Below, one piece after another: positions 7,723 to 25,516 of a stretch of 27,836 bases of DNA. Every line of letters starts with the position of its first letter. Position 1 is the first letter of the stretch. The position numbers and the translations under genes are program-made. The notes beneath the pieces were generated by a model. It did no database searches. It saw only the letters and a program-made list of their open reading frames with translations, and had not been told where the DNA came from. The stretch lies in the IMG/VR virus record IMGVR_UViG_3300028925_001748, positions 1 through 27,836 of that record; one strand, written 5' to 3'. The stretch comes from a virus.

Positions 7723-9600
7723 CTACACTATTTCACATGTACCACCCGCACAGGCTAACTCTTGACTGCCTGTTGTGTTATCCTCTTGTTCAAACTGTTC
7801 AAGATCAATCCAATCTACACCTTTAGGCATTTCTGCTAATAGCTTTTTATATTCATCAGCGGTAATGTCCTCATAAGGAGCTTGCTGATAAACATGGTCA
7901 CTCACTGGCAACAAACTAATACCGCTACAGATATCAAAGTTATCCCATATCCACTGAGCAACTTTCAGGAACTCATCATCTGTGTAATAAACAGTGATGC
8001 TTGGCTTATGCTCACACCAATGATTCTGATATGCCTTCCAAAGTTCTAACTGTTGCATTGCACCTACTTGTCTGACCGTTGTACTGGTCTTAGGTGCTTT
8101 TACAGGGAAACTAAACACAGAGGAGCTAGGTGACATAACATCTTGTTCTACTGGGAATCCTGCTTGCTCCATAAAGACTGCAAGTGGGTCTTTCTTGTCG
8201 CTACGTACCCTTCTAATGTAGTGCTTAGAGAAACGAGGATGTATGCCAGAGGCACTGTCAACAAGCTGAGATACAGTACCGCTTGGCTTAACAGCAGTAA
8301 TAGCTGTAGACTGATTAATGCCAAGTTTTTCAGCCCATTTTTTATTAACTTTAACAGCAACATTCTTTAGTTCCTCTAACCACTCTACGGTTTTATCCGA
8401 TGCTGTGCCGATAACAGGGTGATCCATAATTCCTGTCATGCTTACACCCAACAATGCTTCCTCTTCTGTGTTCTTCTTCCAAATATTCCTAAGGTATCTA
8501 AAGTCAGTTAATGTAGCCTGTAGTGTGCCTATCATAGCCGCTACTTCTACCTTAGCCTTAAGCGTCTTTAGTGTATCGTCAGCACGTACAACCACCTCGC
8601 TAAGGTTACAGAACTGATTACTGCGTAGAATTATCTCAGAGCATGGATTAGTACCAAAGTCCTGTTCTGCATCCCTACGGCCATTACGTCCTGCAATCTT
8701 CTGTGCCGCTACACGACTAAAGATACCACGCTCACCTGCTTTAGATTCGTACATGGTCTGCATCTCAGACAAGAACGATTGGAAGTCAGGCTTCTCTGTG
8801 TACGCTACGCTGTTGTTAGCCAATGCACGTTGTCCTTCATTTCTCCACCAATCACCAGACTTAGCCTTAGCCATACGTTGATCCGACAGGTTAGACAGGC
8901 TAATCAATGCTGAACGTCTAACGCCACCTACAACGACAATGTCAGCAATCTTACATACGATGTCGTGGCACTCAATAGATGTCAGCTTGCGACCTTTAGC
9001 TTTCTGGAAGACTTCAATGCAGAAGTTAAACAAGTCCACCAAAGGCTCTGGGCCAGATGCACGACCACCAAAGGTCTTGAGTCTTTCACCTGATCCTCTA
9101 ACTCTGCTCACATCCCACTGAGGTATCTTACCTGCGTACAGCATAGCAATTAACTCACGGAATGCGGAAGCCCAACCAATCTTGCTGTCCGACACTACAA
9201 TGAGGCTGTCAGTCTTATGAAATGACTCAGCAATCTCTGGCAGCTTGTTGATAAAGTTACGTTCAACACTAAAACCTACACCTGTACCGCACATAAGCAC
9301 GTACATAAGCTCGTCAAAGGAGCGTGGAGAGTCTATGTGTAAGTAGCTACAGTTGAACCCTGCTACGTTGTCTTTGTCTAAGGCTACCCCTGCTGTCATC
9401 ATGCATCTCATGCTAGGCATAACTTCTAGGTTATGTATCGCATCGTATAGTTTCTGCCCTTCCTTGACTGTAATCTGCTCACGATCTCTCCAGAACTGTA
9501 CATAACGAAACACTGTCTCACTCCATGTCTCTCTACGGTTATGCTCTGGCATCCAACGTGCGTAGCGGCTCTTGTGTATAAACTGTTGATACTGATCCAT
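7723..9600 (-). CDS. nrdJ: Class II (adenosylcobalamin-dependent) ribonucleoside-triphosphate reductase
   Basis: A 625-residue enzyme that makes deoxyribonucleotides using vitamin B12 coenzyme, feeding phage DNA synthesis. It matches monomeric RTPR of Lactobacillus leichmannii. Cys84 (FNCSY) corresponds to C119, Cys320 in the NPCSEI motif is the thiyl radical site (C408) with Asn318 and Glu322, and Cys331 corresponds to C419, with the same 11-residue spacing. The C-terminal CAGGTC (Cys617/Cys622) is the thiol shuttle pair (C731/C736). It is about 110 residues shorter than the Lactobacillus enzyme, as is common for phage forms. The ATG overlaps the upstream stop (TAATG). It is the last gene of the leftward unit. 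No thioredoxin gene lies in the window, so reduction probably relies on host proteins. Confidence 0.96.
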   Translation of the reverse strand: MDQYQQFIHKSRYARWMPEHNRRETWSETVFRYVQFWRDREQITVKEGQKLYDAIHNLEVMPSMRCMMTAGVALDKDNVAGFNCSYLHIDSPRSFDELMYVLMCGTGVGFSVERNFINKLPEIAESFHKTDSLIVVSDSKIGWASAFRELIAMLYAGKIPQWDVSRVRGSGERLKTFGGRASGPEPLVDLFNFCIEVFQKAKGRKLTSIECHDIVCKIADIVVVGGVRRSALISLSNLSDQRMAKAKSGDWWRNEGQRALANNSVAYTEKPDFQSFLSEMQTMYESKAGERGIFSRVAAQKIAGRNGRRDAEQDFGTNPCSEIILRSNQFCNLSEVVVRADDTLKTLKAKVEVAAMIGTLQATLTDFRYLRNIWKKNTEEEALLGVSMTGIMDHPVIGTASDKTVEWLEELKNVAVKVNKKWAEKLGINQSTAITAVKPSGTVSQLVDSASGIHPRFSKHYIRRVRSDKKDPLAVFMEQAGFPVEQDVMSPSSSVFSFPVKAPKTSTTVRQVGAMQQLELWKAYQNHWCEHKPSITVYYTDDEFLKVAQWIWDNFDICSGISLLPVSDHVYQQAPYEDITADEYKKLLAEMPKGVDWIDLEQFEQEDNTTGSQELACAGGTCEIV

Positions 9601-10010
9601 TAATTATTCTCCTTGGTTACAATGTCTGTTAATAATGCGAGATACCACATAGCTTTTTGTAAGTCTTCTACCTGCTTGCCTTTGTAATCATAACGCCAAA
9701 GGTATTTCATACAGTTACCTTTAAGATAACCCTTGAAAGCTACTGAAGACATGGACTCTTCAATGGCTTCAATGCATTCAATGTTGCCAGTGTTGTAATG
9801 TTTAGGCTTGTTGACAACATCTTCAGCCACAGTCTGTTTAGTTGCAAGGTCTTGTAAAGCCTTGCGTATAGCTTCTTCGTGGTCATAGGCGTGTGCTTCT
9901 TGCATAGCCATGTCGATGTATGGCTTATAGTCTATGGAGTCTTTCTCAACAGCAGGATGTTCTTTACGTAATCTGTCCCACTCAGTAGGTGTTGCATCAT
10001 TAAGTCTCAT
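9600..10010 (-). CDS. DUF3310 family protein (T7 gp1.7-related nucleotide kinase family)
   Basis: About 136 residues. The C-terminal half, from VVNKPKHYNTGNIECIEAIEE through FKGYLKGNCMKYLWRYDYKGK to DLQKAMWYL, is the classic DUF3310 (PF11753) signature. T7 gp1.7, a dTMP/dGMP kinase, belongs to this family; whether this copy has that activity is inference, though its place between endonuclease I and ribonucleotide reductase fits nucleotide metabolism. I start at the ATG at 10010, with GAGG 9 bases upstream; a TTG at 10013 in the same frame is possible. It overlaps the upstream gene by 11 bases and the reductase start by one. Confidence 0.88.
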   Translation of the reverse strand: MRLNDATPTEWDRLRKEHPAVEKDSIDYKPYIDMAMQEAHAYDHEEAIRKALQDLATKQTVAEDVVNKPKHYNTGNIECIEAIEESMSSVAFKGYLKGNCMKYLWRYDYKGKQVEDLQKAMWYLALLTDIVTKENN

Positions 10011-10182
10011 CAATTATTTCCTCATCTTTAAATTCTTCAGCAAACTCATCAAAGTTTCTAATAAGTCTATGTTCAAAAGCTTCTAGCAAGTCTTTAGTGC
10101 TGATGTCTAGCAACTCAAGAACCAACAACTCATCTGCATTTACTATAATCTTTTCTTTAAGCTCTTCAAGTGTTAAGGACAT
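10000..10182 (-). CDS. Small acidic hypothetical protein
   Basis: Sixty residues, strongly acidic (MSLTLEELKEKI, ending FKDEEIIDET) and predicted helical throughout. It is wedged between endonuclease I and the DUF3310 gene with overlaps of 10 and 11 bases, which is typical of a genuine translated gene in this operon. The pattern EL..LELLDIS..DLLEAFE..LI.N..EF recalls small proteins that travel with T7-like endonuclease I genes in marine phages. Function unknown; a binding partner or inhibitor of a replication protein is only a guess. Confidence 0.75.
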   Translation of the reverse strand: MSLTLEELKEKIIVNADELLVLELLDISTKDLLEAFEHRLIRNFDEFAEEFKDEEIIDET

Positions 10183-11298: not shown

Positions 11299-11773
11299 GT
11301 ATCACTTCCAGTATTAGCTCGTTAGCTATAGCATGTGGTAATCTAAACCACTCGTTAATGTTGTCGCACTCTTTGGCTAGTCTTGCGTGTGCCGCAGCTT
11401 CCCCTGCTCTCCTGTCGTTTACCTCATAAGAGTACAGTAAAGTATAATCTCTGAAGGGTGAGGACGTTTGATAATTCTTAATCCTATCCATAGCGTCTAC
11501 TGCCATCCCTACCTTTACCCAACCTTCCCAAGCAGGGTTCGTGATTATATACACCTGACCCTCTGGACTAGTATCGTAGTTCGCTAAGGAACTAAAGGCC
11601 GCTTCCTCAAACCCTTTGTAGCGTCCTGCTTTGTACAGGGGGTGAGTCTTCTTGACTTCCTTACCGTTGACCCACATGCGTTTGGCATCCCTTGCCTGTA
11701 CCGCTGACTTATTATCCTTGTAGTACTTACCTTTAGTGGGTGTCTGCCCAAGTGTTTCCGACTTTGTAATCAC
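11288..11773 (-). CDS. GIY-YIG nuclease (T5orf172/MUG113 type)
   Basis: The C-terminal half has the GIY-YIG fold in its diverged T5orf172/MUG113 form: EGQVYIITNPAWEGWVKVGMA, then a DRIKNYQTSSP arginine helix, a glutamate in RAGEAAAHARL and a final NEWF. An N-terminal segment (AKRMWVNGKEVKKTHPLYKAGRY) often accompanies this domain in phages. The start is uncertain. The frame is open up to an ATG at 11887, but that would overlap the DNA polymerase 3' end by 155 bases. I chose the GTG at 11773 because residues just after the polymerase stop look coding; the ATG at 11677, with AAGGG 11 bases upstream, is the alternative. The role could be a free-standing homing-type nuclease or a DNA repair enzyme. 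Confidence 0.78.
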   Translation of the reverse strand: MITKSETLGQTPTKGKYYKDNKSAVQARDAKRMWVNGKEVKKTHPLYKAGRYKGFEEAAFSSLANYDTSPEGQVYIITNPAWEGWVKVGMAVDAMDRIKNYQTSSPFRDYTLLYSYEVNDRRAGEAAAHARLAKECDNINEWFRLPHAIANELILEVIHEY

Positions 11774-13460
11774 CCTCAAGTGGGCAGTTGAGTTTGTAGT
11801 AGAGTCCTGCGGCTTGCATACAGCTTGTGGCAAGTCTCCCAAAGACATCTGATTTGTCTGCTCTAACTTCCGTTTGGATTTCATCATGTATATTACCTAT
11901 AAAGTTATAGTCTATACCCCATAGTATAGCATATTCGTCAAGTAAACACAACGCTTTCTTCATTACAATCGCACCTGCTGACTGCAATAAAGTGTTCAAT
12001 GCCGCGTGTGCTGATCGTACATAGACCCTTCTTTTATCCAATCCAAGAACATAGCCTCTTCCAGATGCCACCCCAACTCGCTCTCGTAATCTTCCAAGAG
12101 ATGGCGTATTTGCAAGGAACTTTTCCTTAAGTCGTTTACCATCAACTGCAGTTCCCCCAACGATACTTCCGATTTTTGCGTCCCCTGCTCCATATAGGAA
12201 AGCGTATATAAAAGTCTTTGCTTGATCTCTAGTTTCAAGGCCCGCAGCCAACTGGTTTGCCGTGTGAATATCTCCGTTGAGTACTTCATTTGTGTATCCC
12301 TCGTCGTTCATGTAGTGTGCTAACATTCTAAGCTCTAGCTGAGATGCGTCCATACCTACCAACTTGTATCCCTCTGGCACAGTCCACACATCTCTGCACT
12401 CTCTGCCGTAAGGTGAATACACTGCCGGAATTTGTCCCATGTTCGGACTACTGTGTGTCATGCGTCCTGTCACAGCACCGTTGGAATTAACGTAGCCGTG
12501 AACCCTTCCGTCATCCTTAACTGCCTCTAGCCAACTCTGAACCTGTGCTATGCGCTTCTGTAGCATAAGGTACTCACCTATCAACGCGGCCTCCGGTATG
12601 TCTTTGACTGCTCTAAGCACTGCCTCGTCAACAATAGGCTGTCCCTTCTCAGTGAACTGCTTAGGCTTCCAACCGTAGTACTGCAGGTGTCTGCCTATCT
12701 GCTGTCGTGAACCTAGATTAAACACTGGGAAGTCTATGCGGCTAAAAGGTGCTATAGCTGTTTCCCATTGCTCTCCTAGGAACTTGAGTCCGACAATAGA
12801 GATCGTGCCATCTTTCTTAATCTTTGGTGTGACTTGTTTAATAAATGTTGCCAATGGTTTAAAAACTTCATGCACTTTGTCTTCAAGGTCATACTTCTTC
12901 TCCTTTAGTTCAGCTAACAATAAAAAACACTTCTCTTGGTCTAAGAGCCAACCTGTTTTAATCTGGCTTGAAATAATACCCTGTACTTGATGCTCAAGAT
13001 CAATGCATTCAGGCTCAAAACCCTTAAGCTCAGAAAGTAATCTCTTGTACACCAACGTATTAACTTTAACATCCTGTACACAATACTCCAACATATCATG
13101 CGAGAAATTATCCCAATCATTATAATCACCTTTTGGTTGGTTTAGTGTCTGCCCCCAACTCTCTAAAGAATGTCCACCGTCCCTTGAGGGATTCGCTAGT
13201 CTTGATAGGACTAGGGTGTCCGTAATCTTACACTTGCTAAAATCAGTACCTAATAACCTCTCCAACACTGGTATGTCATAGCCAATTATATTATGGCCTA
13301 TCACTTCACAGTTATCAAAGCCCAGAAGCCACTCATTGAAGTCAAATAAACTGAAGCCATGAAACTCAAAGAACTCTTCAGTGCCTACAATGTGAGCAAC
13401 GATACACCACACCCTATCAGGGTTTAAACCGTTAGCCTCTATGTCAAATACTATTTTCAT
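11733..13460 (-). CDS. Family A DNA polymerase with 3'-5' exonuclease (T7 gp5-like)
   Basis: A 575-residue replicative polymerase. Proofreading motifs: FDIEANGL (Asp6, Glu8), GYDIP (Asp62) and YCVQD (Tyr126, Asp130). Polymerase motifs: A, GMDASQLELR (Asp371); B, RDQAKTFIYAFLYGAG (Arg411, Lys415, Tyr419); C, NIHDEIQ (His525, Asp526). The residue matching E. coli Pol I Phe762 is tyrosine, as in T7 (Tyr526). It is about 130 residues shorter than T7 gp5, and part of the difference falls in the thumb, where T7 carries the thioredoxin-binding loop. The C-terminus GNTWADTH matches the T7 end, so it is complete. The ATG overlaps the helicase stop (TAATG). Confidence 0.97.
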   Translation of the reverse strand: MKIVFDIEANGLNPDRVWCIVAHIVGTEEFFEFHGFSLFDFNEWLLGFDNCEVIGHNIIGYDIPVLERLLGTDFSKCKITDTLVLSRLANPSRDGGHSLESWGQTLNQPKGDYNDWDNFSHDMLEYCVQDVKVNTLVYKRLLSELKGFEPECIDLEHQVQGIISSQIKTGWLLDQEKCFLLLAELKEKKYDLEDKVHEVFKPLATFIKQVTPKIKKDGTISIVGLKFLGEQWETAIAPFSRIDFPVFNLGSRQQIGRHLQYYGWKPKQFTEKGQPIVDEAVLRAVKDIPEAALIGEYLMLQKRIAQVQSWLEAVKDDGRVHGYVNSNGAVTGRMTHSSPNMGQIPAVYSPYGRECRDVWTVPEGYKLVGMDASQLELRMLAHYMNDEGYTNEVLNGDIHTANQLAAGLETRDQAKTFIYAFLYGAGDAKIGSIVGGTAVDGKRLKEKFLANTPSLGRLRERVGVASGRGYVLGLDKRRVYVRSAHAALNTLLQSAGAIVMKKALCLLDEYAILWGIDYNFIGNIHDEIQTEVRADKSDVFGRLATSCMQAAGLYYKLNCPLEGDYKVGNTWADTH

Positions 13461-15088
13461 TAAAACTCCGTCTCATTACCTACTGGACAACTGGTTTCTA
13501 TCATTCTACCAGACTCCTTATCATAATACAGGTAACAGGCCGGTCCTGTCAAGCCCACGAACCTATTTTTTAACACTCTCACACAGGTTGTGTTACGTGT
13601 CTCAGGGTCTGCGTGTTGCTGATCTCGCTCTAAACCAATAACTATGTCGCTAAGTTGCGCGATTGCCGCTGAACCTCTGAGTTCTCCCAAGCTGATCTTA
13701 CCGCCATCTTCATGTGCCTTTGAGCCACTAGGTCTACGCAAGTGTGATACTAAAAATAGCCCTACACCTGTCTCTTGTACTAGCTTACGCAAATTGGTCA
13801 TAATGCTGTCGATAGCTTTACGCTCGTCACCGTTGTCCTGATCGCTGACCACGATGCTGAGGTGATCTAGAATTATCCACTTGCAGTCCAAGCCTTTAGC
13901 CATGTAACGTATGCGGCCTAATAGGTTATCCTCGCTCGTAGAACCCCAATGGTCAAACATATAGATACGTCCTGAGCCTAACGTCCTGTCCCAATAGCCC
14001 TTCTTCTCTTCCTGTGATACCGTCTTGTCAAGGTGAAGCTGCTTGTTAGCCTCTATGGACATGATGCCTAAAGCTGTCTTGGGGATGTCCTCCTCTAACG
14101 CTAGGATACCAATGTTATCCTCAGTAGCACCTAGTAGATAATGCTCTAGCTCTCTGACTATCTGAGACTTACCCATGCCTGAGCCGGAGGTAATGGTGAC
14201 TAGCTCCTTGGGTCTAAAGCCGTGGGTATATTCATTAAGACAAGCCCACGGATAGTCGATTGACTTCACGTTGGACTGCTTAATAATCATGTCCCATGTC
14301 TCATTACCTGCCACGATACCGTCAGGCTGATAGGTCTTAGCGTTCCACCACTCCTTAACAAAGTCCTGCACCTTACGAGCCTTGAGCATGTCCCCTGCAT
14401 CCTTCATGGGCAGTGTAACATTCTTAGCCTTATTGGGGGTGAACAAGTCCAGTACTGACCTTGCGGCCTCTTGTCCGGCCTTGTCATTGTCAAAACATAT
14501 AATAACGTTGTCGAACGTCTCAAGCCATTCAAGATTAGCCTTGATGTCTTTAGCCGCACTAGCCGCACCCGACCTAATGGATACTACAGGCCATTTGCCA
14601 TCGAACATCTCATTAACTGCCAGAGCGTCTGCCTCTCCTTCTACTACTGTTATGTACTTACCGCCTGACTTGAATGCTTGTTGACCAAAGAGTCCTGCAT
14701 TGTCAAAGGAGCCTGTCGCATAAAATTGTTTGTTCTCTACTATACGTACCTTAGTCCCTGTAGCCACGCCTGTATCTTTATCGTGGTATGGGTAGTGGTG
14801 CTTGGTAATTGTCCCATCAGTACCGTACTCAACTGTGACACCATACCGCTTGGATGTCTCTTGGTTGATTCTACGATCAGGGATTGCCGCTATTACACCT
14901 GTCATTTCTAATATCCTTGTAGGCTTGTTGTTACTTGATAATTGACTGATCTGTCCGCTGCCGTGTTCATAGTGACCACAACCACCCGAAAAACAGGTGG
15001 CGTGGCCGTCTGAATAACGAGCCAGATTGTCGGATGAACCGCACGATGGGCATGGCTCATGTCTAACAAAGGTTGACTCGACTGACAT
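13460..15088 (-). CDS. Primase-helicase (T7 gp4-like)
   Basis: A 542-residue bifunctional replication protein. A Cys4 zinc site lies at residues 13-37 (CPSC and CFSGGC). The TOPRIM primase core has VVEGEADA (Glu150) and ICFDNDKAG (Asp200, Asp202). The RecA/DnaB-type helicase domain has Walker A GSGMGKS (302-308), Walker B WIILDH (Asp408), LFLVSHLRRP, and the GELRGSAAIAQLSD segment. It should unwind DNA and lay primers for the adjacent polymerase. Single-base TAATG overlaps join it to SSB upstream and polymerase downstream. Length is close to T7 gp4 (566). Confidence 0.97.
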   Translation of the reverse strand: MSVESTFVRHEPCPSCGSSDNLARYSDGHATCFSGGCGHYEHGSGQISQLSSNNKPTRILEMTGVIAAIPDRRINQETSKRYGVTVEYGTDGTITKHHYPYHDKDTGVATGTKVRIVENKQFYATGSFDNAGLFGQQAFKSGGKYITVVEGEADALAVNEMFDGKWPVVSIRSGAASAAKDIKANLEWLETFDNVIICFDNDKAGQEAARSVLDLFTPNKAKNVTLPMKDAGDMLKARKVQDFVKEWWNAKTYQPDGIVAGNETWDMIIKQSNVKSIDYPWACLNEYTHGFRPKELVTITSGSGMGKSQIVRELEHYLLGATEDNIGILALEEDIPKTALGIMSIEANKQLHLDKTVSQEEKKGYWDRTLGSGRIYMFDHWGSTSEDNLLGRIRYMAKGLDCKWIILDHLSIVVSDQDNGDERKAIDSIMTNLRKLVQETGVGLFLVSHLRRPSGSKAHEDGGKISLGELRGSAAIAQLSDIVIGLERDQQHADPETRNTTCVRVLKNRFVGLTGPACYLYYDKESGRMIETSCPVGNETEF

Positions 15089-17894: not shown

Positions 17895-18317
17895 TTAACC
17901 TACGTCTTCAATTTTATAACACAATCGTACTCTGTGTCTACTACCCTTACCAATAGCACTCCAATCTTCAAGGACACCATCACGGCTTACCGCACAATGA
18001 CTAGCAGTTAAGAACATATAACGGCCTGACATTGGCGCATGGTTGGCTACGGTTCCTAATGTAGCACCGTAAACATTAGGAACATGAACTAATTGCTTAC
18101 CCATTGATTGATATAGTTTGATAATGTGCCATTGTGAAATACCGCGACCCTTAACCCTGCCGACTGTACGTTCTGCGATTGCCCTAGCCTTTCCGAATGA
18201 TAAGTCACACGCTACCGCCAAGCCTATCACTGTACAAAAGTTATTGTCCTTATAGTATTTACTACCTACCTTTGATAACTCTGCGTAGGAATGTCTAAAA
18301 TGTTTGATCTTATTCAT
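17895..18317 (-). CDS. Papain-fold cysteine peptidase-like protein, first early gene
   Basis: A 140-residue protein. NNFCTVIGLAVACDLSFGKARAIAE gives a cysteine (Cys28) at the start of a long helix. SGRYMFLTASHCAVSRDGVLEDW then gives a histidine (His107) on a strand, followed by an acidic residue (Asp118). This Cys-helix, Gly-rich strand, His-strand, Asp order is that of small phage papain/C39-like domains. Activity is inferred from pattern only; the acidic member is the least certain. It is the first gene of the leftward unit, directly after the structured leader, so it should be made earliest. AAAGG lies about 10 bases before the ATG. A host-modifying role would fit that timing. Confidence 0.72.
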   Translation of the reverse strand: MNKIKHFRHSYAELSKVGSKYYKDNNFCTVIGLAVACDLSFGKARAIAERTVGRVKGRGISQWHIIKLYQSMGKQLVHVPNVYGATLGTVANHAPMSGRYMFLTASHCAVSRDGVLEDWSAIGKGSRHRVRLCYKIEDVG

Positions 18318-18332
18318 TTTCTAATACCTTTA

Positions 18333-18656
18333 GTTATTCACTACAAACACCAGTTGCCTAGTGTCTCCAGTGAATAACCGCTGATTAAATACGGTACTGC
18401 TTAACGGCACACCTTCGCCCTAGGGCTACTTCCCGTCATAACCGTTTCTAATCTTGGTTATTCTGCCCGCTAAGGATGGTCTTCTGTCTCACTATTGCCA
18501 AGGCTACTAAGCTGAGAGTTTAAACCGCTATTGCGGGGGGCTTCAGGGACTGTTTCCTTCGTCTTCAGCCTATAAGTCACCTTGGTAACTGCTGAAGCTA
18601 GGTATCAATCTGGGGAACCGTTCCCCTGTTGCCTGAGTCCATTGTATCGACTCAAC
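18333..18656 (-). ncRNA. Candidate structured RNA or structured leader upstream of the early operon
   Basis: No frame of use is open here, but nested helices are dense. In plus-strand coordinates: 18333-18341 with 18370-18378 (9 perfect pairs) enclosing 18347-18353 with 18358-18364, whose loop on the minus strand is GCAA, a GNRA tetraloop; 18403-18407 with 18442-18446 around the palindrome GCCCTAGGGC at 18417-18426; 18487-18491 with 18513-18517; 18525-18528 with 18533-18536; 18563-18569 with 18591-18597, stacking on 18575-18580 with 18585-18590; 18612-18617 with 18621-18626; 18634-18639 with 18649-18654. Two helices contain a G-U pair only when read on the minus strand, where the plus strand would have an A-C mismatch. 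That favours leftward transcription. I do not recognise the family. Confidence 0.6.
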
Positions 18657-18662
18657 AGCTAA

Positions 18663-18691
18663 TGTATATAATGCAAACTATATAGTGTCCA
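18663..18691 (-). promoter_or_regulatory. Leftward early promoter candidate
   Basis: On the minus strand TGGACA (18686-18691), 17 bases, then TATACA (18663-18668): five and four of six consensus matches. The start would be near 18656, where the folded region begins. A second -10 match, TATAAT, lies at 18695-18700 on the same strand but with a poor -35; it sits inside the dyad ATTCAT-TAT-ATGAAT (18691-18705), which could be an operator overlapping the promoter. Confidence 0.6.
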
Positions 18692-18748
18692 TTCATTATA
18701 TGAATACCATATGTTACCTTCTATCATGCGCGCCCGCGTAGCAAGAAC

Positions 18749-18851
18749 CATGCCAACTATATTCACATGCAATACTTATGCCAACATGGTGGGGTCTATA
18801 GGTATCCACACGGACACACACACTCGCCCCATGCAATACCCATGCCAACAT
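18749..18851. repeat. Iteron-like direct repeats next to the DnaA-box cluster
   Basis: ATGCCAAC occurs three times in the same orientation (18750-18757, 18778-18785, 18842-18849). The second and third copies are part of a 22-base direct repeat (18766-18787 and 18830-18851) that differs at only two adjacent bases (tt versus cc). Short tandem sites beside DnaA boxes are typical of initiator-binding iterons, but no initiator protein is recognised in the window. Confidence 0.65.
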
Positions 18852-18980
18852 AAGCACCATGCCCCGTGTATAACCTGTGGATAACTTATGTAGCCTGTGG
18901 ATAACTTATGCACACCTTATGCACACCTTATGCACTGCTGTGGGTATCCTGTGGATAACTTATGTAAAACCTGTGGATAA
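18802..18980. other. Candidate replication origin: DnaA-box cluster
   Basis: Four copies of TGTGGATAA, the complement of the canonical DnaA box TTATCCACA, lie at 18876-18884, 18896-18904, 18950-18958 and 18972-18980. Two TTATGCACA boxes, matching TTATNCACA, lie in the opposite orientation at 18906-18914 and 18917-18925. Near matches with one mismatch are at 18802-18810, 18865-18873 and 18928-18936. A G-rich patch (about 18984-18997) follows, then very AT-rich DNA (19261-19330 has about 16% G+C by my count), which could unwind. The cluster sits between the divergent transcription units, a usual origin position. A DnaA-titrating or DnaA-regulated control site is the alternative. Confidence 0.72.
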
Positions 18981-19059
18981 CTTCGGGGGCGGGGGGCCGC
19001 GTGGCTATTGTAGTATTGTTACTGTACCCTCCGGCATACAAAATAGTAGGAAATTAGGA

Positions 19060-19107
19060 TTGACAACTGTATCCTCATGTGTACTGTAACCTTATGTAAT
19101 ACATAAG
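19060..19107 (+). promoter_or_regulatory. Possible rightward promoter with a palindrome at its start site
   Basis: TTGACA (19060-19065) is followed after 16 bases by TACTGT (19082-19087), a moderate -10. The 7-bp dyad CTTATGT-AAT-ACATAAG (19091-19107) covers the expected start point. A further TTGACA at 19130-19135 has only a poor -10. Activity is less certain than for the promoter at 19188. Confidence 0.4.
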
Positions 19108-19187
19108 AAAACACAGGTCTACCATAGGGTTGACACAAGCAGTGTAAAGGGACATGAGAATAACTTAGATAATATAGTAAATAATGC

Positions 19188-19216
19188 TTGACTTCTGCTT
19201 AATAATATGCTATAAT
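19188..19216 (+). promoter_or_regulatory. Strong rightward sigma70 promoter for packaging and head genes
   Basis: TTGACT (19188-19193), a 17-base spacer and TATAAT (19211-19216), eleven of twelve consensus positions. The start is expected near 19223, which leaves a very AT-rich leader of about 130 bases before the small terminase gene. It should drive the terminase, endolysin and portal genes. Confidence 0.85.
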
Positions 19217-19219
19217 AAC

Positions 19220-19336
19220 TAGTATACTAAAGAGATAAAGATAACCAAGCGCCTTAAGGGTACTTAAGAAAACTTTAAGAATTAACTTTAAAGAAATAAT
19301 TAAAGTAAATACTAAAGCATATTTAAGTATACTTAA
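19220..19336. promoter_or_regulatory. Operator-like palindromes in the late leader
   Basis: TAGTATACTA (19220-19229) covers the expected start of the promoter at 19188, and TTAAGTATACTTAA (19323-19336) lies just before the small terminase ribosome site. Both contain the 8-base core AGTATACT. CTTAAG also occurs at 19253, 19263 and 19332, and AGATAACCAAG is repeated directly at 19239-19249 and 19336-19346. The same AAGTAT half-site appears in the palindrome at 15478-15491. Confidence 0.45.
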
Positions 19337-19355
19337 GATAACCAAGGGGTATATT

Positions 19356-19760
19356 TTGAGTAACGAAAAGCAGCCTGTAGTAAAAAAGAAAGGCAGACCC
19401 AAGAAGAAAGATGTTGTGTCAAAAACAACAGGCAATAGGAATAAGGTAGGTCGTCCTAAAGGTGATGCTTCAATCATCAACGACTATAAAGCTAGGATGC
19501 TTGCTTCCCCTAAGTCTAGGAAGGTCTTGGACTCTATATTGTCAGCAGCCTTGGACGATGATCATAAGAATCAAGCAGCGGCTTGGAAGCTGTGTATGGA
19601 TAGATTACTGCCCGTTAGCTACTTTGAGAAAGATAAGGCAACTGGTGGAAAGAGTGCAATCAATATATCAATCACAGGCGTGGGTGGAGAAACTACTATC
19701 ATCTCAGGCGGTAACGAACAAGAACCCATTGAAGGGGACTACACTGATGTCGAGCATTGA
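19356..19760 (+). CDS. Small terminase subunit candidate with two AT-hook-like motifs
   Basis: A 134-residue protein. The N-terminus is highly basic with two GRP cores (KKKGRPKKK at residues 10-18 and KVGRPKGD at 31-37), as in minor-groove AT-hooks. The middle is helical (ARMLASPKSRKVLDSILSAAL, then NQAAAWKLCMDRLLP) and the C-terminus is acidic. The start is TTG, supported by AAGGGG about 7 bases upstream; the first ATG in frame is 48 codons later. It opens the packaging operon ahead of TerL, where the DNA-recognition subunit is normally found. The functional call is by position and DNA-binding character, not by a clear family match. Confidence 0.68.
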   Translation: MSNEKQPVVKKKGRPKKKDVVSKTTGNRNKVGRPKGDASIINDYKARMLASPKSRKVLDSILSAALDDDHKNQAAAWKLCMDRLLPVSYFEKDKATGGKSAINISITGVGGETTIISGGNEQEPIEGDYTDVEH

Positions 19761-20121: not shown

Positions 20122-21375
20122 TTGGCTGATTTAAAGGTTGAGCTACTACCTTGGCAGCAGACAGTATACGAAGACAAGACACGCTTTAAGGTCATAGCAG
20201 CAGGTAGACGTACAGGTAAGTCACGATTGGCTGCTTGGGCTTTAATACTTAACTGTTTGTCAGCTAAGAAGGGTCAGGTGTTCTACGTAGCTCCTACACA
20301 GGGACAGGCTAGGGACATCATGTGGCAGATGCTGCTAGAGCTAGGCAACCCTGTTATCTCTTCAAGCCATGTCAATAACCTACAGATCAAGTTTATTAAT
20401 GGCGCACTCCTGACACTTAAGGGCGCAGACAGGCCGGAGACCATGCGTGGTGTCAGCCTTAAGTTCTTAGTCATGGATGAGTATGCAGATATGAAGCCAG
20501 AGGTGTGGGAGCAAATCCTACGTCCGGCTCTTGCGGATCAGAAAGGTGATGCAATGTTCATTGGTACGCCAATGGGTCGCAACCACTTCTATGACCTATA
20601 TTCATACGCAACCATTAGTGAAGATGATACCTTTGTAGGCTATCACTTTACAAGCTTTGATAACCCACTGCTAGACCCTGAAGAGATTAGAGCCGCTGAG
20701 AAGTCAATGTCAGCCTTTTCCTTCCGACAGGAGTTCATGGCATCCTTTGAGGCTCACGGTAGTGAACTGTTTAAGGAAGATGATGTCAAGTTTAGTGAAG
20801 AAGAGCCTAAGGAAGGTGAGTTTTACATTGCAGTGGATTTGGCGGGTTTTGCTGACGTACAAAAAGTAACTACTAAAACAAACAGGCTTGACCAAACGGC
20901 CATTGCAGTTGTTAAAGCAGGTGTTGATGGTTGGTGGGTTGCTAATATTATACATGGGCGTTGGGGCGTAGAAGAGACTGCTAGGAAAATCTTTGAAGCA
21001 GTTAGAGACTACCGTCCACTAGCTGTAGGCATTGAGAAAGGTGCTTTAAAAAACGCTGTACATCCATACTTAAATGACCAGATGAAAAAAAATCAACGGT
21101 TTTTTAGAGTAGAAGAACTTACACACGGTAACAAAAAGAAAATAGATAGGATTGTGTGGGCTTTACAAGGCCGTTTTGAACACGGTAACATCACATTAAA
21201 CAAAGGTTCTTGGAACAGTCAATTTTTAGATGAGTTATTTCAATTTCCTAACTATTTAGTTCACGATGATTTAATAGATGCCTTAGCATATATAGACCAA
21301 CTTGCAAAAGTTTCTTATGCTTATGATTATGAAGAAGAAGAATACGAATTTTTAGACAAATACGCAGGGTATTAA
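20122..21375 (+). CDS. terL: Terminase large subunit (packaging ATPase-nuclease)
   Basis: A 417-residue TerL. The ATPase half has an adenine-binding segment (ELLPWQQTVYED), Walker A AAGRRTGKS (residues 26-34), Walker B FLVMDE (Asp119, Glu120) and the coupling motif FIGTP. The RNase H-like nuclease half has IAVDLAG (Asp239), VGIEKG (Glu305) and HDDLIDALAY (Asp382/383/386). It starts with TTG directly after the endolysin stop (TAATTG); no earlier or nearby ATG exists, and translation is probably coupled. It pumps DNA into the prohead through the portal encoded next. The length is on the short side but all motifs are intact. Confidence 0.96.
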   Translation: MADLKVELLPWQQTVYEDKTRFKVIAAGRRTGKSRLAAWALILNCLSAKKGQVFYVAPTQGQARDIMWQMLLELGNPVISSSHVNNLQIKFINGALLTLKGADRPETMRGVSLKFLVMDEYADMKPEVWEQILRPALADQKGDAMFIGTPMGRNHFYDLYSYATISEDDTFVGYHFTSFDNPLLDPEEIRAAEKSMSAFSFRQEFMASFEAHGSELFKEDDVKFSEEEPKEGEFYIAVDLAGFADVQKVTTKTNRLDQTAIAVVKAGVDGWWVANIIHGRWGVEETARKIFEAVRDYRPLAVGIEKGALKNAVHPYLNDQMKKNQRFFRVEELTHGNKKKIDRIVWALQGRFEHGNITLNKGSWNSQFLDELFQFPNYLVHDDLIDALAYIDQLAKVSYAYDYEEEEYEFLDKYAGY

Positions 21376-24733: not shown

Positions 24734-25516
24734 ATGGCAACACTAATAGACGAGCGTACTGAAAAAGAAGAAGATAACACAGGAGAACAAATAAGTCAAC
24801 TTACAGCGGAACCTGAGTTACAGGAAACTCCCCAAGAAGACATCCCCGACAAGTATAAAGGAAAGTCAACTGCTGACATCGTAAGGATGCATCAAGAGGC
24901 TGAAAAGTTACTTGGCAGACAAAGCAGTGAAGTAGGGGAGTTACGTTCAGTTGTTGATAACTACATTCAGACACAACTCGACACCACAACACAAACAAGT
25001 CCCGAACCTGAAGAAGACGTAGATTTTTTTAGTGATCCAGAGAAGGCGGTGGAAAAAGCAATTAGAAACCACCCTTCAATTAAACAAGCTGAAGCAGTAA
25101 CTCAGCAGTATAGACAGTCAACAGCCCAAGGTCAGCTACAAGAAAAACACCCTGACATGCAAGCTATTTTGACGGACTCTAAATTTGTTGATTGGATCAA
25201 ATCGTCAAAAATTCGTACACAGCTTTTTGCACAAGCAGATGCACAATATGATTACGAAGCTGCCGACGAGCTTTTCACTAACTGGAAAGAACGTAAGCAA
25301 GTAGTAACTCAATCAGCTGCTAATGAAAAAGCTAGTCGTAAAACCGCAGTTAAGGCAGCCTCCACAGGTAACGCCAAAGGCAGTGGTGAAGCGGCAAAGC
25401 GAAAAGTCTACAGGCGTTCAGACATTATTAAACTTATGCAGGACAACCCTGAAAGATACTTAGCTTTAAGTGATGAAATCATGCAAGCATATCAAGAAGG
25501 AAGAGTCCGAAACTAA
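24734..25516 (+). CDS. Capsid scaffolding protein
   Basis: A 260-residue protein, acidic at the N-terminus (DERTEKEEDNTGEQ), helical and coiled-coil prone throughout, and basic at the C-terminus (KAAKRKVYRRSDI to GRVRN). The segment IPDKYKGKSTADIVRMHQEAEKLLG is typical of podovirus scaffolds. The acidic body with a basic end that grips the capsid protein, and the position just before the major capsid gene, make the call strong. It should direct prohead assembly and leave before DNA fills the head. Confidence 0.88.
   Translation: MATLIDERTEKEEDNTGEQISQLTAEPELQETPQEDIPDKYKGKSTADIVRMHQEAEKLLGRQSSEVGELRSVVDNYIQTQLDTTTQTSPEPEEDVDFFSDPEKAVEKAIRNHPSIKQAEAVTQQYRQSTAQGQLQEKHPDMQAILTDSKFVDWIKSSKIRTQLFAQADAQYDYEAADELFTNWKERKQVVTQSAANEKASRKTAVKAASTGNAKGSGEAAKRKVYRRSDIIKLMQDNPERYLALSDEIMQAYQEGRVRN

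Follow-up and report, generated by a model that had tools for sequence, protein, structure and literature searches.

Why would a phage with a T7-type replisome carry a cluster of consensus binding sites for host DnaA between its divergent operons? The window analysed here is a stretch of viral DNA of 27,836 nucleotides (IMG/VR record IMGVR_UViG_3300028925_001748). Its initial annotation, made from the letters alone, proposed that the cluster is a DnaA-dependent replication origin, linked this to the absence of a T7-type RNA polymerase gene, and named titration of host DnaA as the rival idea.

The DnaA-box array and its gene setting

The six perfect boxes reported within 105 bases are confirmed and span 18876-18980. 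Four copies of TTATCCACA start at 18876, 18896, 18950 and 18972 on the minus strand and two copies of TTATGCACA start at 18906 and 18917 on the plus strand. The three additional one-mismatch boxes were also found, at 18802 (+), 18865 (-) and 18928 (+). Successive box starts in the array are 11, 20, 10, 11, 11, 22 and 22 bases apart, a register of roughly 11 bp, and AT-rich DNA flanks the array on both sides. A beyond-chance cluster of consensus boxes is one mark of a DnaA-dependent origin, and the non-coding interval 18318-19355 holds 6 boxes against a shuffle mean of 0.086 and a maximum of 2 (2000 shuffles). Elsewhere in the window TTATNCACA has a single further copy, at 9573. The window contains DnaA and sigma54 sites and neither a LexA nor a Fur site. 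The main features are as follows.

11733-13460, minus strand: family A DNA polymerase
13460-15088, minus strand: T7-type primase-helicase of the leftward operon
18741-18755, minus strand: sigma54 consensus match TGGCATGGTTCTTGC
18769-18783, minus strand: sigma54 consensus match TGGCATAAGTATTGC
18802-18817, plus strand: left flanking element R1, GTAYCCNNNNGNAYAC type, overlapping the one-mismatch DnaA box at 18802
18833-18847, minus strand: sigma54 (-24/-12) consensus match TGGCATGGGTATTGC, leftward
18865-18980, minus strand: DnaA-box array in a register of about 11 bp, comprising the six perfect boxes and the one-mismatch boxes at 18865 and 18928
18985-18996, plus strand: G-tract, reading as a C-tract on the minus strand; it belongs to the conserved core and usually lies 22-29 nt from R2
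19024-19046, plus strand: conserved core element R2, GTACCCNCNNNNATACAAAANAG
19188-19216, plus strand: strong sigma70-type promoter (TTGACT-17-TATAAT) serving the rightward operon
19356-19760, plus strand: first ORF of the rightward operon, a candidate for the small terminase by its position only, without a family match
20122-21375, plus strand: large terminase subunit

The interval is non-coding, as had been described, and forms the divide between a leftward replication operon and a rightward terminase and structural operon (terminase, portal, capsid). The first rightward ORF occupies a place equivalent to that of a putative small terminase in phage HTVC103P. The replication genes are of the T7 type and comprise the primase-helicase, PolA, an exonuclease, endonuclease I and a Gp2.5-like protein, as expected of T7-like phages (Autographiviridae). 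These phages are also defined by a single-subunit RNA polymerase gene of their own. In agreement with the initial annotation, no T7-type RNA polymerase gene is found among the ORFs of the window, and a PF00940 search of 13 related contigs (33-38 kb, possibly incomplete) gave 0 matches, with two positive controls detected. Cumulative GC skew had been suggested as a check on the origin. It does turn, with a minimum near 18.75 kb, but the coding strand switches at the same place; the turning point is undiagnostic and we rejected it as origin evidence. At its left end, the window starts within an ORF (1-774) encoding long TP/VP, TGD and TTG repeats, probably of low complexity.

A candidate new structured RNA lies to the left of the array on the minus strand (18318-18646). 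The fold z-score for 18318-18740 is -5.7, and an alignment of ten relatives has compensatory changes in 24 of 82 predicted pairs. The candidate has no match in Rfam at E up to 1, and a model of its 3' part matches only some relatives. Together with an ORF of 140 aa (17895-18317) it looks like one inserted module at about 17896-18710. Homology to one relative (L091) breaks off at 17895 and resumes at 18711, and two others (L096 and L098) have no match across the module.

Host-protein sites in marine relatives

A large group of uncultured marine phages shares the interval in conserved form. A TerL search of viral contigs yielded at least 600 related stretches, and further relatives were found with the conserved DNA core right of the array as query. 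The core consists of the G-tract followed by GTACCCNCNNNNATACAAAANAG, at a spacing that is nearly fixed across marine cassettes. Because the core doubled as the search anchor, part of its conservation is inflated; the G-tract spacing and the bases outside the search pattern are unaffected. The sites were counted in 154 non-redundant cassettes, each comprising the 300 bp left of the core, with near-copies removed; the cassettes are counted as separate and are still related by descent. Host identity was sought from genome contigs, and the two matches, to a Sphingobacteriales MAG and a Verrucomicrobiales MAG, were set aside as probable binning artefacts.

DnaA boxes occur in 74 of the 154 cassettes and lie mainly on the minus strand in 70 of these 74. 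The total of TTATNCACA is 253, against 3.6 in shuffles. Same-strand spacing peaks at 11 and 22 bp, and an unsupervised dyad search ranked the DnaA box as the top motif. Conservation in close relatives had been proposed as a check on the boxes. The confirmed boxes hold up in that comparison, in orientation and helical phase too, so host DnaA likely binds those of the window.

The same slot left of the core holds other sites in other relatives. These are consensus sites for LexA, ParB (parS), sigma54, Fur or NtrC, or a 26-bp dyad (GTGACY...RGTCAC), and they occur in cassettes without DnaA boxes as well as in some with them. Nearly all host-protein sites fall between -300 and -50 relative to the core. 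Sigma54 sites number 80 in the 154 cassettes against 0.15 in shuffles, and control patterns with the spacer one longer or one shorter gave 0 matches and 1 match, respectively. The parS site is found in 10 cassettes (0 in shuffles), LexA sites in 14, and Fur-like and NtrC-like sites in 8 and 5, both of the last assignments being based on few sites. The dyad is the commonest alternative (50 of 154; for example L053, L082 and L087). It is likely a site for some protein, and our search did not find its identity. Sites for CRP, FNR, IHF, PurR, NrdR, CtrA and alphaproteobacterial LexA were rejected, as none was enriched in the 154 cassettes. In 31 cassettes none of the named sites is present.

On the TerL tree DnaA boxes switch between present and absent at least 25 times, and on the primase tree 15 times. 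Within the primase clade of the window, 38 of 42 members have boxes. An origin of this kind should keep its boxes wherever the same replisome is kept, yet four relatives (L111, L152, L286 and L225) encode a primase-helicase 87-91% identical to that of the window and have 0 boxes. From these two results, the boxes are favoured with this replisome yet unneeded by it.

Phage genome ends

A blastn search with the array as query found matches in T7-like phages. The direct terminal repeat of phiEap-1 (1-195 = 38939-39133) contains 5 perfect boxes and that of ZK1 (1-292 = 45548-45839) contains 6. Similar arrays are found in P483, A7, Kp7 and cp31, so that these phages carry 4-6 perfect TTATNCACA boxes (cp31: 3) close to a left end of the T7 type, together with a C-tract where the genome end is within the record. 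A literature search on DnaA boxes in T7-like terminal repeats found no paper. Unlike the window, phiEap-1 and ZK1 each have an RNA polymerase gene of their own, and all their genes are transcribed in a single direction. The proposed tie between the array and a missing polymerase is therefore unsupported. The T7-like arrays also differ in that box orientation relative to the early genes is reversed (phiEap-1) and in that, unlike in the marine group, other host sites were not found in these phages. As a separate observation, the 128-kb Lactococcus phage LW81 (L394) has four perfect TTATCCACA boxes in a non-coding stretch at about 24886-24960.

The C-run starts 26-29 nt from the left end in most T7-like phages examined; VP4 has no C-run at 26-29 nt, and its record is possibly permuted. 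This spacing matches the distance from the tract to R2 in the marine phages, so the left genome end of this phage probably lies by R2, near 19023/19024. A position within a terminal repeat at the entering end would fit both the C-tract spacing and the gene order seen in the sequence. A cos site at the G-tract was considered and rejected, since contig ends are not sharply concentrated at the core, which long contigs traverse at many different offsets.

A further parallel comes from phage T5, whose annotated injection-stop signal occupies 9140-10149 of AY543070. This signal has a LexA box at 9411, same-strand DnaA-like boxes at 9437, 9449, 9498 and 9510 and, from about 9650 onwards, Fur-like boxes. 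In shuffles, one-mismatch DnaA boxes number 0.31 and Fur-like matches 0.02. The LexA box and DnaA-like boxes are kept in Klebsiella phage Shiner and phage chee158, which represent two other T5-like genera, and both have Fur-like matches within about 500 bp. According to a 2026 paper, DnaA boxes are present in the T5 signal, to which host components that stop the transfer may bind (PMC13250531).

Possible roles of the array and comparison with known systems

We favour the view, to which we give slightly less than an even chance, that the array is a docking site for host proteins just inside the phage genome end, beside a T7-type terminus. The common element is a group of host-protein sites by a known or probable genome end, for which the protein is exchangeable, and this fits a physical role (pausing or anchoring of entering DNA, or end processing) better than a role specific to DnaA. 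We infer that proteins bind here, next to a physical end, and that they most likely act on DNA entry or else on end processing. The likely order would be genome end, C-tract, array and early operon. On the entering end, host proteins would form a phased, oriented complex on the array, and this complex might pause or anchor the DNA, as proposed for the T5 injection stop, a mechanism that is itself unproven. DnaA would be the main ligand in the window phage, with the sigma54-like sites alongside, and LexA, ParB, Fur, NtrC or a dyad-binding protein may share or replace its role in relatives. Several observations count against docking. The HTVC103P interval has none of the host-protein sites, the left ends of T7, T3, KP34, SP6, phiKMV, KP32 and gh-1 have no DnaA array, the boxes of phiEap-1 are reversed, a share of the marine cassettes lacks all the named sites, and contig ends do not peak at the core.

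The original proposal of a DnaA-dependent origin, in which DnaA would oligomerise on the phased array, open the flanking AT-rich stretch and let the phage primase-helicase and polymerase start there, now seems unlikely. Its foundation stands, as the boxes are perfect, mostly on one strand, separated by gaps of about 2 bp, bordered by AT-rich DNA, frequent in the window's primase clade and placed at the skew minimum. It is weakened by the box-less relatives with nearly the same primase-helicase, by the replacement of boxes with sites for unrelated proteins, by the same arrays in terminal repeats of T7-like phages that have an RNA polymerase, and by a skew that follows the gene strand. Titration, in which many phage copies would absorb DnaA and other host regulators and so upset host replication or regulation, is very improbable. 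Each genome does carry several boxes and the ligands are global regulators, but a sponge needs neither strong orientation nor helical phasing, its fixed position by the core would be left unexplained, and with just one or two LexA, parS or Fur sites little protein would be absorbed.

DnaA, LexA and Fur can all repress transcription, and 68 of the 80 sigma54-like sites are directed to the early operon. These points would suit a host-regulated control region in which bound proteins time the leftward early operon, and control of phages by host regulators has precedents in CtrA, LexA and Spo0A (cited in PMC9437464). We consider this reading improbable, because the cassettes showed no recognisable shared promoter layout, the DnaA arrays of T7-like phages are part of the terminal repeat and precede the early genes, and regulators that report quite different cell states replace one another fast. 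A role purely in end processing appears more doubtful still. Bound by proteins, the array would then obstruct terminase or polymerase, or serve them as an accessory site, during terminal-repeat duplication and concatemer cutting. Unrelated proteins could act as roadblocks, the T7-like arrays sit inside terminal repeats, and the core by the array is the most conserved element and adjoins the terminase genes; against this, T7 and others have no such sites in their terminal regions.

The docking view invites a wider and more tentative claim, which we think has a modest chance of being right. Unrelated phages (T5-like, T7-like and the marine group) may have docking arrays at their genome ends that can stand in for one another, each assembled from consensus sites for abundant DNA-binding proteins that the host happens to offer. 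Such arrays would serve generally as a signal for the terminus or for entry, and T7 and T3 may have a further form of it in the short-repeat arrays at their ends. If this is true, one feature joins the T5 injection stop, the end repeats of T7-like phages and an abundant uncultured marine phage group. To phages, a host DNA-binding protein would be a physical anchor for which another could be substituted, and laboratory phages would offer a way to test what terminal arrays do.

Among known systems, the marine phage HTVC103P, cultured on Pelagibacter, has a polymerase and primase-helicase related to those of the window (about 51-54% identity) and the same divergent layout of terminase and early genes, and its record ends between the two, a point in favour of the docking view; its portal and terminase are distant from those of the window. 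The array resembles bacterial oriC in its perfect, oriented DnaA boxes with a register of roughly 11 bp. It differs from oriC in that no fixed unwinding element was identified and in that the boxes are dispensable in close relatives, where other host sites stand in their stead. T5, a siphovirus, is unrelated; it has weaker boxes and a terminal repeat of 10 kb, with the injection-stop signal at the inner end of the left copy, and its two-step injection is not known for the window's phage. In T5 and its relatives non-coding DNA combines DnaA boxes, oriented as an array in T5, with LexA and Fur-like sites. Sites of these kinds also occur in the marine cassettes taken as a group, but in the window DnaA boxes are accompanied by sigma54 sites and by neither LexA nor Fur sites.
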